DNA of 27,259 nt from a virus, in the IMG/VR virus record IMGVR_UViG_3300035670_001062, positions 1-27,259 of that record; one strand, 5' to 3'. The notes under the pieces were generated by a model. That model did not search any database and was not told the DNA's origin. It saw only the letters and a list, made by a program, of their open reading frames with translations. Below, piece after piece: positions 5,862-14,092 of the stretch; within the stretch, counting starts at the first letter, position 1; the number at the start of each line of letters is the position of its first letter. The position numbers and the translations under genes are program-made.

Positions 5862-6005
5862 TCACCTCGCTGCGATGTAGAGTCCGATGTTGCTGAACGC
5901 ATACCCGGCGTAGGCGAGGGCGAGCCCGTGCTTGCCCTGCCACGCCAGGTCGCACGCCACGTAGGCGTAGATGCAGCCCGTCAGGGCGATGAGCCAAGCC
6001 GCCAT
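5862..6005 (-). CDS. Small membrane protein, 47 aa
   Basis: The ATG at 6005-6003 overlaps the DnaN stop as TGATG. The product is almost entirely hydrophobic: residues 2-20 (AAWLIALTGCIYAYVACDL) and 27-44 (GLALAYAGYAFSNIGLYI) form two membrane helices joined by a short charged Trp-Gln-Gly-Lys-His turn. Such two-helix hairpins are common among phage small membrane proteins of unknown role. Its fixed position directly after the clamp gene argues that it is real. Confidence 0.7.
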   Translation of the reverse strand: MAAWLIALTGCIYAYVACDLAWQGKHGLALAYAGYAFSNIGLYIAAR

Positions 6006-7111
6006 CAGTCGGCCGCCAGCGGCATGATGACGCCCTTGTACGGCCCGCAGGTGATGAGCACCCGGCTCTGGCCGTCCTTGACGTACACGTCGACCTGGGG
6101 CTCCTCGTCGTCCGGCAGATGCCGCAGGAAGTCGATGATGAACCGCGGGTCCAACTTGACGGGTGCCGTGGTGCCGGCCGCCACGATGTCGCACTGCACG
6201 GTCGACTCGCCGTACTCAGCCGAGCGGCCCGAGATGACGAGCGTGTTGCTCGTCCACGTCAGGTCCACGCCCTTGCTCTGCTCGCTCGTCACGATGGCGG
6301 CGGCCCGCACCGCAGAAAGCCAGTCGCTCCGCTCGAGCACCGTGGGCTCGCCCTCGGGCTTGCCCATCACGTCACGCCACCGAGGGAACCGGCCCTCGAC
6401 GAGCCGGCCGGTGATGATGGTGCCGTCGATCTCAAACCGCACCTCGCTCGCCGTGGCCTCGACCTGCACGCTGCCGCTGCCGGCCATGCCGGCCACGATG
6501 TCGAGCACACGGCGAGGCACCAGCACGTCCCGGTCATCGACGGCCTGGTCGGTCTCGGTCTCCACGAGCGAGAGCCGCCGGCCGTCCGTGGCCACCCAGG
6601 TCGGATTGCCGTTCTTCACCTCGAGCAGCACGGCCCCGAGGGCGTAGCGGCTGCTCTCGGTGTCCGTGGCGTACGTCGTGCCCTTGGCGGCCCGGGCAAA
6701 CTGGTCGGCCGGCAGCCGGCAGACGGCCTCAAGGTTGCTCGGCTCCCACGTCGGGAACTCATTCACGTCCTCGGTCGGCAGCGTCCACGAGCCGCCGCCG
6801 CAGGTGACGACGACGCTCGTCTTGCCGGCCTTGAGCGTCACCTCGTCGCCCGTGGCGGCCCGCACAATGGCGAGCAACCGAGCGTGCGGAACCAGGAACG
6901 GCTCGCAGTGCTCCGAGATGGCCCTGTCGATCCGCACCTCCAGGTCGGTGCCGGTGACGAGCCCGTCTCCGATGCGGACGTTCTGCAGTACCGGCTTGGG
7001 CGACCGAGCCACGATGGCGTGGTTCACCGCCACCAGGGCGTCGAGCAGCTCAGTTCTTAGAAGGGTCGTAGTACTGGAAGCCTTCGGCTTCGTAGCGGTT
7101 GCGGTCGTCAT
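6005..7111 (-). CDS. dnaN: DNA polymerase III beta subunit (sliding clamp)
   Basis: The 368-aa protein has normal length for a bacterial DnaN. After a 13-residue Thr/Ala-rich lead it shows LLDALVAVNHAIVARSPKPV, matching the first helix of the clamp, and the repeated three-domain pattern, with TGTDLEVRIDRAI in domain 1, ATDGRRLSLVETE in domain 2 and the closing C-terminal strand VLITCGPYKGVIMPL of domain 3. DnaN forms the ring that tethers the polymerase to DNA. The start ATG 7111-7109 follows AAAGGA. The gene begins inside the previous small gene (62 bases of overlap). A phage carrying its own clamp probably recruits the host polymerase to its replication forks; no polymerase gene is visible here. 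Confidence 0.93.
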   Translation of the reverse strand: MTTATATKPKASSTTTLLRTELLDALVAVNHAIVARSPKPVLQNVRIGDGLVTGTDLEVRIDRAISEHCEPFLVPHARLLAIVRAATGDEVTLKAGKTSVVVTCGGGSWTLPTEDVNEFPTWEPSNLEAVCRLPADQFARAAKGTTYATDTESSRYALGAVLLEVKNGNPTWVATDGRRLSLVETETDQAVDDRDVLVPRRVLDIVAGMAGSGSVQVEATASEVRFEIDGTIITGRLVEGRFPRWRDVMGKPEGEPTVLERSDWLSAVRAAAIVTSEQSKGVDLTWTSNTLVISGRSAEYGESTVQCDIVAAGTTAPVKLDPRFIIDFLRHLPDDEEPQVDVYVKDGQSRVLITCGPYKGVIMPLAAD

Positions 7112-7226
7112 GGTGAGAGTCCTTTCTCTTCTGGGAAACAGCGATGCCCACGGAACACCCGAGGACAAAGGTCAACACGTTGAACAACATGCCCAACGCA
7201 ATGCAGGTGAACTCGCTGACGCTCAT
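7050..7226 (-). CDS. Single-pass membrane protein, 58 aa, overlapping dnaN
   Basis: It starts at ATG 7226-7224 in an ATGA overlap with the preceding gene. Residues 7-31 (CIALGMLFNVLTFVLGCSVGIAV) form one membrane helix, followed by a basic and polar tail. The last 62 bases are shared with the start of dnaN in another frame. Unknown function. The hydrophobic helix and coupling support the call, while the long overlap lowers confidence slightly. Confidence 0.62.
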   Translation of the reverse strand: MSVSEFTCIALGMLFNVLTFVLGCSVGIAVSQKRKDSHHDDRNRYEAEGFQYYDPSKN

Positions 7227-7468: not shown

Positions 7469-7711
7469 TCAGCCCTCCAAGATCGGCACGATGGAGTTGG
7501 CCCGGCCCGGCGTACGCTTCACGTAGCCACGCTTCTCGAGGTACGTCAGGTGGCAGTACGCGCCGCCCGGCGATGCGAAGCCGAAGGCCTCGCTGATTTG
7601 CCGGATGCCAACGCCTGCGCCGGTCTCGGCGTACGTGGCACAGATCCAGTCGTACACGGCACGCTGCCGGTCGGTGATGCGGGGACGGGTGTCGGTCGTG
7701 GTGGTGCTCAT
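7469..7711 (-). CDS. LexA-type winged-helix DNA-binding protein lacking a peptidase domain
   Basis: The 80-aa product matches the LexA N-terminal domain along its whole length: ITDRQRAVYDWICATYAETG, then VGIRQISEAFGFASPGGAYCHL, then the wing LEKRGYVKR and the final RANSIVPIL. The C-terminal Ser-Lys autoprotease domain is absent, so it cannot self-cleave in response to DNA damage. AAGGAGGAGG precedes the ATG, and the start overlaps the replication gene stop (ATGA). It may act as a phage repressor or as a competitor for host LexA sites. Possible targets are the palindromes at 12155-12168 and 12627-12640, though that link is untested. Confidence 0.85.
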   Translation of the reverse strand: MSTTTTDTRPRITDRQRAVYDWICATYAETGAGVGIRQISEAFGFASPGGAYCHLTYLEKRGYVKRTPGRANSIVPILEG

Positions 7712-10543: not shown

Positions 10544-10924
10544 TTACGCGCCACTCCCGGTTGGCGACCCCTGCGGCTGCGATGCGTCAGCCGCTGTGGC
10601 CAGGGCTGGCCGGTCGCGTGACTCCTCTCGTGCCGCCTGCTCGAGCTCGTCGGCCTGGCGGATGAGCCGCTCGCCGATGCGTCGCAGCAGCGGTGCCGCA
10701 GCGGCCAGCGCCAGCGTCCGCGTCGGCTGCCAGTACTGCGAAACCTCCTCTCGGTGCGTCTCCCAGCCTTGCTGATCCAGGCTGCGCCGCCGATAGACGA
10801 CGTACTGCCCGCACGGCGACAGTTCCATCGACGAGCAGAACGTCGGCACCGGCGAGTCTGGGTGCCACAGCGAGAGCGACTGCAGCCCGAAGTGGCCTCG
10901 GTACATGGTCGTGGGCTCGCTCAT
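10544..10924 (-). CDS. Hypothetical protein, 126 aa
   Basis: The ATG overlaps the RecT stop as ATGA. The first 70 residues are rich in aromatic residues and probably beta (YRGHFGLQSLSLW, QYVVYRRRSL). The second half is an Arg/Glu/Ala helix that may form a coiled coil, ending in a Ser/Gly tail. No family is recognised. Its tight coupling to RecT suggests a recombination-related partner, but it does not show the motifs of an exonuclease. Confidence 0.72.
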   Translation of the reverse strand: MSEPTTMYRGHFGLQSLSLWHPDSPVPTFCSSMELSPCGQYVVYRRRSLDQQGWETHREEVSQYWQPTRTLALAAAAPLLRRIGERLIRQADELEQAAREESRDRPALATAADASQPQGSPTGSGA

Positions 10925-11727
10925 GCCACCACCTCGCTCTCGGCCTCGAGGAACTCGACGCGGGCGTGGATGGCGTCAAACAACGAGTCGGCCTGAAACG
11001 GGGCGAAGGTGCCGTCCTTGAGCCGCAGCTCGATCTTGGCCCGCATCCGGTCGAGCTTGGCGATGTCCCGCTCGGCCTCGATGGCGGCCTGAGCGACCTC
11101 GTACGGGTCGACCCGCTCCTCGGCCGGCTGCGGCGGTGCGTCAAACTTGGGGCGCACCACGACGGGCTCGGGCGTGGCCGACGGCGTCGGGTAGTCCTGG
11201 GCCTCCTCGGCGGTGACCATGCCACGCAGGGCGTCGGGGAACGCATCACGCAGGGCGAAGCCTCTGGCCCGCATCTGCAGCATCCGCCTTGGGTACTGCG
11301 TCCACGGGCCGCTCTTGCCCCACAAGCCGGCCTTCTTGGCGTCGGCGACGGTGAACTTGACCACGGTGGGCGTGGGGTAGCCACGCCGTTTGGCGGTGCA
11401 TGTGGCCACCATCTGCTCGCCGTCGCCGTCTACAGACTCGGTCACGTACTCGCAGACCTGGCTGGCCTTGACCACCGCCAGGGCGGCGTCGCCAAAGATG
11501 CTGGGCCGCCCGTTGACCACACCAATCGACTGCAGGGCCTGCATCGGGGACAGCCCAATCTCGGCCCCGGCCTGAATGGCCAGCACGCAGCTAGCAGGCT
11601 TGCCGCGGAAATCCTTTGGGGCGAAGTCGCTCGCCGCTACCATCTCGCCAAACTTCATGGCGTCGGCCATCGTCTGCAACGCTAGTCCCTTGGCCGGCGT
11701 CGTGTTGGTGCTGATCTCTGTGCTCAT
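10921..11727 (-). CDS. recT: RecT-family single-strand annealing protein
   Basis: The 268-aa protein has the RecT core. GLSPMQALQSIGVVNGRPSI (residues 58-77), then a Trp/Tyr-rich PWTQYPRRMLQMRARGFALR and DAFPDALRGMV segment, are the conserved signature. The C-terminal 100 residues are a Pro-rich linker and charged helices. RecT anneals complementary single strands and promotes strand invasion during phage recombination. No YqaJ or lambda Exo-type nuclease is adjacent, so the partner may be the metallophosphoesterase, the PD-(D/E)XK-like protein or a host enzyme. The start is preceded by AAAGGACG. Confidence 0.9.
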   Translation of the reverse strand: MSTEISTNTTPAKGLALQTMADAMKFGEMVAASDFAPKDFRGKPASCVLAIQAGAEIGLSPMQALQSIGVVNGRPSIFGDAALAVVKASQVCEYVTESVDGDGEQMVATCTAKRRGYPTPTVVKFTVADAKKAGLWGKSGPWTQYPRRMLQMRARGFALRDAFPDALRGMVTAEEAQDYPTPSATPEPVVVRPKFDAPPQPAEERVDPYEVAQAAIEAERDIAKLDRMRAKIELRLKDGTFAPFQADSLFDAIHARVEFLEAESEVVA

Positions 11728-11835: not shown

Positions 11836-12075
11836 TCAGCCCTCCACCCGCTCGCCAGTCCACTCAAGCTCCCTCGGGTAGTACGACAGCGTCTCGCCGT
11901 TCATCTCGACGAGGCAGTACGTGCCGTTGGTGGCCCGGACGATGCCTCGGGCTCGGTCGCCCAAGAACGGCCGCTCGCCGATCACGATGTCGCCGGGGCT
12001 CGGTCGGTAGCCGTAGGTCGCAGCCATGCCGGCGATCGCGCCGGCCGCTTCGGAATGGTGGGGATCGGTAGTCAT
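11836..12075 (-). CDS. Small SH3-like barrel protein, 79 aa, unknown
   Basis: AGGAGG lies upstream of the ATG. After a 27-residue Ala-rich lead, the sequence alternates like a small beta barrel: PGDIVIGERPFLGDRARGIV, then TYCLVEMNGETLSYYPRELEW. The GD-V start, the G-V centre and the Tyr-Pro end resemble SH3 or KOW folds, and the 77-aa protein at 12336-12569 follows the same pattern. Its role is unknown. A promoter-like sequence lies directly in front. Confidence 0.75.
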   Translation of the reverse strand: MTTDPHHSEAAGAIAGMAATYGYRPSPGDIVIGERPFLGDRARGIVRATNGTYCLVEMNGETLSYYPRELEWTGERVEG

Positions 12076-12106: not shown

Positions 12107-12134
12107 ACTGTACGCGTGTCAACCGATGAGTCAA
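12107..12134 (-). promoter_or_regulatory. Promoter-like sequence for the 79-aa gene
   Basis: On the minus strand TTGACT (12129-12134) is followed after 16 bases by TACAGT (12107-12112), about 30 bases before the ATG. A copy of the repeated TTGACAC element lies inside the spacer (12116-12125), which could be a protein-binding site that overlaps the promoter. Confidence 0.5.
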
Positions 12135-12154: not shown

Positions 12155-12199
12155 TGCCGATGTCGGCAGTACGGTAGCCGTGTCGGTAGGAAGTGTCAA
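12155..12199 (-). promoter_or_regulatory. Promoter-like sequence with palindromic operator candidate
   Basis: TTGACA (12194-12199) is followed after 17 bases by TACCGT (12171-12176) on the minus strand. The perfect palindrome TGCCGATGTCGGCA (12155-12168) covers the expected start of transcription. The -35 overlaps the stop codon of the 23-aa gene. The palindrome matches the one at 12627-12640 in its core CCGA-N2-TCGG. Confidence 0.5.
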
Positions 12200-12267
12200 C
12201 CGGCCAGCCCAGCGGAAACGATCCGCAGGGCGAGAATCAGCAGCTCGAGCCAGAACTGGGTGTTCAT
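12196..12267 (-). CDS. Hydrophobic micro-protein, 23 aa
   Basis: This is too short for standard gene callers, but AAGGAGGG lies upstream of ATG 12267-12265 and the frame ends at TGA 12198-12196. The product is MNTQFWLELLILALRIVSAG followed by Leu-Ala-Gly, and residues 5-20 form one amphipathic or membrane helix. A strong ribosome site in front of a clean, hydrophobic short frame supports a real peptide. A leader peptide is the alternative, since a promoter-like sequence begins at its stop codon. Confidence 0.5.
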   Translation of the reverse strand: MNTQFWLELLILALRIVSAGLAG

Positions 12268-12335
12268 CTCGTGGCCCTCCTTGGCCGTAGAGTCCTGTGC
12301 CCGCCGGCCCTGGTGCCGGCGGGCGGGGTGGTCGG

Positions 12336-12569
12336 TCAGCCGGCCATCTTTTTTTGCACGGCCCACGGCGGGCAGTCCACCGTGGTGCGGTAGTCCAGCC
12401 GCACGGCGTAGAGCTGAGGCCGGCCAGGAATCAGATTCATGATCTCAACAACCTCGCCAGTTCGCTGGTTGTGCTCGTAGGTGCCTCCGAAGTTGACCTG
12501 CACGCGGTCGCCAATCGTCACAGTGCTGATCGTCTTGCGAGCCATCGACTTCTTGTCAGCCTTGGTCAT
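12336..12569 (-). CDS. Small SH3-like barrel protein, 77 aa, unknown
   Basis: I use ATG 12569-12567 because GGAGA lies seven bases upstream. The N-terminus is basic (TKADKKSMARK). The rest alternates like a small barrel: TIGDRVQVNFGG, RTGEVVEIMNL, QLYAVRLDYRTTV, CPPWAVQKK. The pattern parallels the 79-aa protein downstream. It is the first gene after the operator-bearing promoter at 12623-12650, so it should be among the first products when that promoter is on. Confidence 0.72.
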   Translation of the reverse strand: MTKADKKSMARKTISTVTIGDRVQVNFGGTYEHNQRTGEVVEIMNLIPGRPQLYAVRLDYRTTVDCPPWAVQKKMAG

Positions 12570-12622
12570 CGTTTCGTCTCCTGGTTGGTGTCTTGCGGGT
12601 CTCACTTGCCCGCGTCTGCCCT

Positions 12623-12650
12623 AGTATACCGACATCGGTAGGTAAGACAA
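12623..12650 (-). promoter_or_regulatory. Promoter with palindromic operator candidate
   Basis: TTGTCT (12645-12650), a 16-base spacer and TATACT (12623-12628) give the best sigma-70-like promoter in the window, on the minus strand. The palindrome TACCGACATCGGTA (12627-12640, plus-strand reading) fills most of the spacer and touches the -10 box. A repressor bound there would block transcription of the 77-aa gene and those after it. Confidence 0.65.
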
Positions 12651-12696: not shown

Positions 12697-13062
12697 CTAG
12701 GTATCTGGCGAGAATCCGCCGGGGGCCGGCCCCTTGGCGATGCCGGCGTCGCGGGCCTTCTGGCGGGCCTTGGCCAGCTTCTTGACCTGCTCGAGGTCCA
12801 GCACCAGGGCTCGGTCGGTGAGCTTGCTGCTCCAGAGCGTGGGCTCGCCGCCGCCCTCGGGTGGCCGACACATCTGCCGGACCCGGCCCATGGTGCAGCC
12901 GAGGATCTCGGCCGCCTCACGGCAGGTGCAGAGCGTTCGCTGCGGTTCTCGTAGTGCCACGATCATGTCCCTGGCAATCCTACCGACGTAGCAACCAGAG
13001 TCAAACGTCGGCACTCCAGTCCTCCCAGGTCTAGTCCTGAGATTCGCCTTGGGGGCGTCCAT
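12697..13062 (-). CDS. MerR/excisionase-type helix-turn-helix regulator, 121 aa
   Basis: Residues about 43-100 hold CTCREAAEILGCTMGRVRQM, a winged helix-turn-helix of the MerR/Xis class, then a wing and VLDLEQVKKLAKARQKARD, the helix that closes such domains. The gene points away from the integrase and lies beside it, so it could be the excisionase, the lysogenic repressor or both. The ATG at 13062-13060 has no ribosome site, but a TATAGT box ends eight bases before it, which would give a message starting at or next to the ATG. An internal ATG at 12966-12964 would still include the whole domain, so the start is uncertain. Confidence 0.72.
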   Translation of the reverse strand: MDAPKANLRTRPGRTGVPTFDSGCYVGRIARDMIVALREPQRTLCTCREAAEILGCTMGRVRQMCRPPEGGGEPTLWSSKLTDRALVLDLEQVKKLAKARQKARDAGIAKGPAPGGFSPDT

Positions 13063-13171: not shown

Positions 13172-14092
13172 ATGTCAGCCTGCACTCTGCGAGATGTGCT
13201 CGAGAGATACGCCGTGCTCCAGAACCTCAGCGACCGCACGGTCACCCTCTACTCGCACACGCTGGACAGGTTCCGAGATTGCCTTGGTCATGAGCCGACC
13301 GTCGATGACCTCGACGATCTGGTCGTGGCCGGCTTCCTGCGATGGCGGGCCGTCACGCCACACAAGGGCCGGAAGCTCGTGTCGGCGGCCAGCGTCGCCA
13401 AGGACAAGTGCCAACTGGTGGCCATGGCCAACTTTGCGGCCAAGAAGCGGATGCGGAAAAGCAACGGCGAGCTCGTTGAGTTTCTGTCGCTGCCCCGTGG
13501 TCGCACGATCCGCCACGCGCCGCAGGCTTACACCTTGGACGAAGTGCGGCGGCTTATCCTCGAGGCACGCAAGCGTGACGGCCAGGTCGCCGGGTATCCG
13601 GCCGGCTGGTGGTGGTCCACGCTCATCCACACTGCGTGGGAAACGGCCGAGCGGATTGGGGCCCTCCTAGCCCTCAGGTGGGCCGATGTGGATCTTGAGG
13701 CACGGACAGTCCTTTTCCGTGCGGAAACCCGTAAGGGGCGATCCCACGACCTCCTGCGGCCCATTACGCCAGAACTGGCGGCGGTGTTGCGGCGAGAGGC
13801 CAGAAAGCCCCAGGATCTCGTCTGGCCCTGGGACCGGAAGCAGTACACATCGATCTGGGCCAGCCTGCGGCTGTTGGCCAAGCGGGCCGGTGTCCGTGGC
13901 ACCGGGTTTCACAAGCTCAGGAAGTCGTCGGCCTCCTACCTCGCGGCGGCCGGGGGCGACGCTACCGAGCACCTTGGCCACGCCAAACCGGAGGTGACCC
14001 GGCAGCACTACCTCGACCCGAGGATCACTGCGCCCAAGCGGGCCGTCGACTACCTGCCGCCGCTCGACCTGGGCGAGGAGCCGGCGGCGTGA
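13172..14092 (+). CDS. int: Tyrosine recombinase (phage integrase)
   Basis: I start at ATG 13172 because AAGGATG lies about eight bases upstream; the frame is open eleven codons further back. The 306-aa protein has an N-terminal SAM-like core-binding region (about 1-105) and a catalytic domain with the full tyrosine recombinase set: Arg161 in ETAERIGALL, Lys188 in ETRKGR, His247 and Arg250 in GFHKLRKSS, His270 in HLGHAK and the nucleophile Tyr280 in QHYLDPR. It would insert and remove the phage genome at an attachment site, probably the repeat-rich region just upstream. It is the only plus-strand gene in the window. Confidence 0.95.
   Translation: MSACTLRDVLERYAVLQNLSDRTVTLYSHTLDRFRDCLGHEPTVDDLDDLVVAGFLRWRAVTPHKGRKLVSAASVAKDKCQLVAMANFAAKKRMRKSNGELVEFLSLPRGRTIRHAPQAYTLDEVRRLILEARKRDGQVAGYPAGWWWSTLIHTAWETAERIGALLALRWADVDLEARTVLFRAETRKGRSHDLLRPITPELAAVLRREARKPQDLVWPWDRKQYTSIWASLRLLAKRAGVRGTGFHKLRKSSASYLAAAGGDATEHLGHAKPEVTRQHYLDPRITAPKRAVDYLPPLDLGEEPAA

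Follow-up and report, generated by a model that had tools for sequence, protein, structure and literature searches.

Covariation of an Xis-like regulator with putative promoter operators in a family of uncultured phages

Introduction

Two matching palindromes sit on promoters in the control region of an uncultured virus, and the question they raise is which protein reads them and to what end. The window, that is, the whole stretch of DNA analysed here, is a 27,259-base IMG/VR virus record of siphovirus type that encodes a tape measure, tail proteins, an integrase, RecT and a DnaN-like clamp. The original prediction took the palindromes for operators of a lysogeny switch and named two candidate binders, a MerR/Xis-type protein and a protein with a LexA-type domain. 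Here, we describe the sites and their promoters, the proposed regulator, and how sites and proteins vary among related phages.

Operator-like sites in three predicted promoters

The palindromes lie at 12155–12168 (TGCCGA-CA-TCGGCA; O-3b) and 12627–12640 (TACCGA-TG-TCGGTA; O-E), both listed on the minus strand and at the coordinates originally given. They had been described as perfect 14-base palindromes, but their 6-bp arms flank a TG/CA centre that is non-palindromic, so that 12 of 14 positions pair. Their placement on promoters was borne out. O-3b covers the expected start of TTGACA-N17-TACCGT, a real promoter match that points left (minus strand), and O-E lies within the spacer of TTGTCT-N16-TATACT, likewise a real minus-strand match and one also found by our promoter scan. 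The half site TCGGTA reported at 12183–12188 is present, but it is half of a third, degenerate site, O-3a (TACCGACACGGCTA; 12175–12188, minus strand), 20 bp from the first palindrome. A fourth copy, the half-degenerate O-auto (TTGCTACGTCGGTA; 12981–12994, minus strand), lies further upstream. In a scan of the window, matches to TACCGACATCGGTA at up to three mismatches were confined to the control region. The core CCGA-N2-TCGG occurs four times in the window versus 0.85 expected, and 0 of 100 shuffles reached four; two of these copies are the palindromes above and the others (23827 and 27060) lie far from the control region.

The promoter scan returned three promoters in the region versus 0.1 expected, and all relevant promoters are on the minus strand, directed away from the integrase. 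The sites sit in three predicted minus-strand promoters, of which two had been named before. Pauto (TTGACT-N16-TAGGAT; 13004–12977) is the regulator's own promoter, with O-auto over its −10. PE (TTGTCT-N16-TATACT; 12650–12623), with O-E in its spacer, starts 46 bp beyond the stop codon of the helix-turn-helix (HTH) gene and is the promoter of the genes after the regulator. P3 (TTGACA-N17-TACCGT; 12199–12171) is the distal promoter and has O-3a in its spacer. In each of the three, a copy of the site ends in the TA with which the −10 begins, and at P3 a second copy follows 20 bp on, over the expected start. Almost every promoter of the set has a 16–17-bp spacer, and the −35 and −10 hexamers are good.

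The surrounding genes are arranged around these promoters. A tyrosine integrase (13172–14092, plus strand) is divergent from the regulator. The first gene from PE (12336–12569, minus strand; ATG at 12569) encodes 77 aa with no assigned function and is replaced by other genes in relatives. P3 overlaps the end of a gene for a 23-aa peptide (MNTQFWLELLILALRIVSAGLAG; 12196–12267, minus strand), the TGA stop of which lies inside the P3 −35 TTGACA; the peptide is hydrophobic and conserved, and the overlap of stop and −35 recurs in relatives. Further on, a conserved promoter without a full operator, P4 (TTGACT-N16-TACAGT; 12107–12134, minus strand), precedes a 79-aa gene (11836–12075) and recT, which encodes a RecT-like annealing protein (10921–11727, minus strand) that served as the anchor for finding relatives. 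P4 (TTGACTC...GTACAGT) is conserved in phages of operator types A, B and C (see below) and may be constitutive or under another regulator. The clamp is a phage-encoded DNA polymerase III beta clamp (6005–7168, minus strand) with all three domains.

A single-domain regulator with a predicted leaderless message

The MerR/Xis-type candidate had been read from the open reading frame at 12697–13062. As Pauto lies inside this listed frame, translation probably starts at Met33 (12966) and not at 13062, which gives an 89-aa winged-HTH (wHTH) regulator of HTH_17 type (Xis/BldC-like; 12697–12966, minus strand), the proposed repressor. The distance from the Pauto −10 to the ATG is 10 nt in the window; of 38 loci, 24 have a distance of 6 nt, 11 one of 7 nt and 3 one of 10 nt. 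With such spacing, transcription would begin on the start codon or immediately beside it, and the regulator mRNA is accordingly predicted to be leaderless, or nearly so, in all 38 loci. The lambda cI mRNA made from PRM is leaderless.

The HTH_17 profile (PF12728) was matched by 18 of 28 family members, with a best value of 4.1e-8. The window's own protein gave a profile match to Rv2175c_wHTH alone, below the cut-off, and its HTH_17 membership therefore comes through its relatives. The best sequence match in the PDB was Pukovnik Xis (4j2n; E 6.5e-5). An AlphaFold2 model (mean pLDDT 80.7) has a wHTH fold with an HTH, a two-strand wing and a C-terminal helix; neither an effector domain nor a dimerisation coiled coil is visible in it. 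The closest structures were BldC (Z 7.3) and Pukovnik Xis (Z 6.8), followed by MerR-type domains, all with middling Z values, and Foldseek alone returned no significant match for the model. Searches for the host and for wider relatives were negative for the HTH protein, both in GTDB genomes, which were searched with an HTH alignment, and in 50,697 phage records; the RecT relatives found were mostly proteobacterial (39–59% identity), and only one such locus had a weak HTH match.

Related phages carry about seven operator types

Relatives of the HTH protein in viral contigs share 63–99% identity over 89 aa. In all 14 relatives from the first scan, TACCGAYRTCGGTA occurs shortly past the HTH stop, and each TTGAC-N16/17-TANNAT promoter that was scored there carries it in the spacer. 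Over the −10 of the regulator's own promoter, the GTCGGTA half is likewise retained in most of these relatives, and P3 persists together with its tandem sites in several. Most phages found through RecT carry, in the same place between divergent int and recT, a highly divergent HTH protein of the same family, and 58 distinct candidates were collected at the equivalent position. Loci with divergent HTH proteins have the same promoter layout (Pauto, PE and P3) but a different operator. About seven operator types (A–G) can be told apart: besides type A, these are type B (TTTACCGATAGCGGTA), type C (CTAACGATACCGCTA), type D (GGTTCCGATATCGGTA), type E (TCTAACGCCGACGCTA), type F (AACTGACGATACCCTA) and type G (GTAGTTGCGATATCGCTA). 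A motif-blind scan, which asked only that a promoter have a palindrome within its spacer or close by, recovered types A and B. Types A, B, D and G form complete or near-complete inverted repeats, and type F is not palindromic; symmetry is lower in types C, E and F, so dyad symmetry is a trait of some types and not of the family. In type A, the site at the regulator's own promoter has only one intact half, whereas the PE site is symmetric.

Operators covary with the HTH protein and not with its neighbours

Covariation of palindrome and protein across related phages had been proposed as a check, and we assessed it with Mantel tests over 38 loci that compared similarity of the PE operator with similarity of each protein. 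The HTH protein tracked the operator (r 0.71; partial r given RecT 0.71; 0 of 2,000 permutations). RecT was related neither to the operator (r 0.02) nor to the HTH protein (r 0.06), and the integrase gave r 0.10 with the operator (partial r −0.13 given HTH) and r 0.27 with the HTH protein. Between the proposed binders, it is the MerR/Xis-type protein whose variation follows the operator; the LexA-domain protein did not track the operator (r 0.036, p 0.28) and was rejected as binder of the sites on this test. Phage pairs with 98–99% identical RecT can have HTH proteins that are only 15–37% identical, together with different operators, and the reverse also occurs.

Because the HTH gene adjoins PE, part of this covariation could be linkage, and the distal site at P3, ~130–1,600 bp beyond PE, served as a control. 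Distal sites matched their own PE operator at 12.5 of 15 positions versus 10.3 for non-cognate operators (0 of 20,000 permutations), and flanking 15-mers used as queries gave nothing (p 0.53 and 0.87). The flanks of the distal sites tracked the HTH protein weakly (r 0.22 and 0.17) in a test that is partly circular, as the sites had been chosen by their match to PE; the PE-operator query is the fair test. An earlier cognate test with O-auto as query was weak (11.1 observed versus 9.9) because O-auto is half-degenerate, and the PE operator was used instead. When the P3 regions of types A and B were aligned, the peptide gene and P4 were conserved, but the operators between them differed.

We then turned to 112 distinct loci outside the training set, which came from four further scans and from type A loci collected earlier. 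In 100 of them, the best operator class was the one expected for the class of the HTH protein; 5 of the 12 exceptions had a type B protein and a variant in which the type B flanks are retained (TTTACCGATACCGGTAAA). As far as sequence comparison can tell, the HTH protein and its sites vary together as one exchangeable unit across more than 100 related uncultured phages. Conservation, fixed position in promoters and covariation with the regulator strongly support the status of the sites as operators, and the two palindromes are very probably operators of the adjacent Xis-like HTH protein.

A putative immunity repressor of the early operon

These observations suggest a model in which the HTH protein would bind at Pauto, PE and P3, within the −35/−10 spacer and across the −10, and block RNA polymerase. 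With 16–17-bp spacers and good hexamers, the promoters should be active on their own, and a bound protein would cover the spacer and the −10, which points to repression by occlusion. PE and P3 would head an early operon of small genes followed by recT and replication genes, which the protein would keep off, and the weaker O-auto site would let the regulator hold its own level low. An own site with one intact half next to a symmetric PE site would fit low, autoregulated expression with PE shut first. Regulator and operators would be swapped between phages as a set, giving rise to about seven or more specificities that resemble immunity groups. We consider it likely that the HTH protein is an autoregulated wHTH repressor of the early operon, exchanged together with its operators in the manner of an immunity repressor. 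Binding, repression rather than activation, and a role in lysogeny and superinfection immunity are what we infer from the arrangement and its variation.

The lysogeny switch of the original prediction would fit the presence of an integrase in 37 of the 38 loci, the immunity-cassette-like exchange and the lack of a match to known repressor families: no Peptidase_S24 or HTH_3 domain scored above cut-off in 16 related records of 29–50 kb, although control genomes matched, and the window's HTH protein itself matched neither. No candidate for the immunity repressor other than the HTH protein was thus seen, and it probably is that repressor; as the related records are fragments, a repressor outside the known families could exist. 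About evenly balanced, in our view, is the fuller picture of a large clade of uncultured temperate phages in which a single-domain Xis/BldC-type protein would be the only immunity repressor, made from a leaderless mRNA, with at least seven operator specificities cassette-swapped between otherwise near-identical phages and an early-operon leader that bears a conserved RNA hairpin. In the literature searched, of which coverage was partial, no HTH_17-type immunity repressor is described. New here are the third promoter, the corrected gene start and the prediction of a leaderless message, as well as the covariation over about seven operator types, the exchange of cassettes and the conserved PE-leader hairpin with its covarying stem. 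If the model is true, an excisionase-type fold has turned master repressor in a phage group without a cultured member known here. Dozens of natural protein–operator pairs within one family would then make the recognition code of minimal winged-helix proteins, and the evolution of immunity groups, directly testable, and would be a source of short orthogonal repressor–promoter pairs for laboratory use.

A parallel exists with lambdoid immunity regions and the repressors of cluster A mycobacteriophages, where a repressor is exchanged along with its operators and both diverge in step, creating immunity groups (for cluster A, PMC6550527). Those repressors belong to other protein families. A point against the model is that the regulator here, unlike CI, is co-directional with the early genes. 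Whereas the stoperators of cluster A are spread over the genome, the sites here are confined to three promoters of one control region. Stoperator-like spread was not seen in relatives, in which extra copies were few and mostly had 2 mismatches, with a reversed control giving similar numbers in some records. In fold, the best structural score is with BldC of Streptomyces, also a minimal MerR-like wHTH protein without an effector domain. BldC is a host developmental regulator that binds direct repeats head to tail (PMC5859096), whereas operator types A, B, D and G of the present phages have arms that are inverted, or almost so. Direct-repeat binding by the related folds of Xis and BldC, together with the non-palindromic type F operators, also counts against the model.

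The main rival, which we regard as unlikely though well short of negligible, is that the HTH protein binds the sites as an early-phase regulator and/or excisionase in the manner of Apl of 186 or Cox of P2, while an unrecognised protein maintains lysogeny. Apl of coliphage 186 is both an excisionase and a repressor of early promoters and acts through cooperative direct repeats at pR–pL and att, beside a separate CI repressor (PMC7498355), and XisF4 of Pf4 likewise regulates the switch beside a separate repressor (PMC7379572). It is because such excisionase-type proteins serve switches without being the immunity repressor that a Cro/Apl-like role has to be weighed. As with Apl, a small DNA-binding protein of a temperate phage would repress early promoters by way of sites that overlap them or lie between them (PMC7498355), repression being what we infer here; moreover, the HTH gene adjoins int, and Pukovnik Xis is among the closest matches in both sequence and structure. 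However, Apl and other recombination directionality factors use direct repeats one helix turn apart (PMC7498355), whereas the promoter spacers here hold discrete 14-bp dyads, and no gene of CI type turned up. Pukovnik Xis is named for excision, but the conserved sites here are at promoters: only O-auto, and no full site, lies between int and the HTH gene; attP was not located. No second regulator is conserved beside int, Int and HTH vary nearly independently, and exchangeable specificity is expected of an immunity repressor and less of an excisionase tied to att. In a few relatives, a second, different HTH_17-like protein is encoded just past the 3′ end of int (L008:4410–4676, L025:1597–1947, L080:1651–1902); it is a candidate excisionase and would free the first HTH protein from that role. 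The int–HTH intergenic regions (L004:5861–5980 and others) contain palindromes resembling TGTACANNTGTACA that recur, and upstream of int in relatives lies a conserved block similar to CATGCCCTCCGCT; both may reflect int regulation or attP.

Much less probable is a MerR-type activator that would sit in the spacer, twist the promoter and switch the early genes on. The MerR-like wHTH fold and the dyads between −35 and −10 would suit it, but MerR activators use 19–20-bp spacers and the promoters here, at 16–17 bp and with good hexamers, need no such help; nor does the model reveal the effector domain or coiled coil. We give slightly less credence still to the sites being LexA (SOS) boxes, read by host LexA or by the phage's stand-alone LexA DNA-binding domain protein (7469–7711, minus strand; E 1.8e-13). 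That the window encodes such a domain speaks for this, yet the protein lacks an S24 peptidase domain and is present in most relatives whatever their operator, and operators differ among the phages with near-identical RecT, whose hosts are probably close. The LexA-domain protein is conserved in the early region of many relatives and is possibly Cro-like or an antirepressor. Chance palindromes in a GC-rich window, to which the two further copies of the core elsewhere might point, are refuted by conservation, fixed promoter position and covariation and can practically be dismissed. The repressor reading is the one that we prefer.

A covarying hairpin in the PE leader

Between PE and the first gene of the operon, the window encodes a hairpin, GCGGG-CAAGUGAGA-CCCGC (12595–12613, minus strand), with a conserved loop (CRNNUGAGA) and a covarying 5-bp stem. 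No Rfam family matches the control region, hairpin included. The hairpin was found at 99 distinct places, 93 of them directly after PE-type promoters of several operator types, compared with 3 for a reversed-loop control. Its stem occurs as GCGAG/CTCGC, GCGGG/CCCGC and TCAGG/CCTGA, and the element could be an antitermination or protein-binding RNA.
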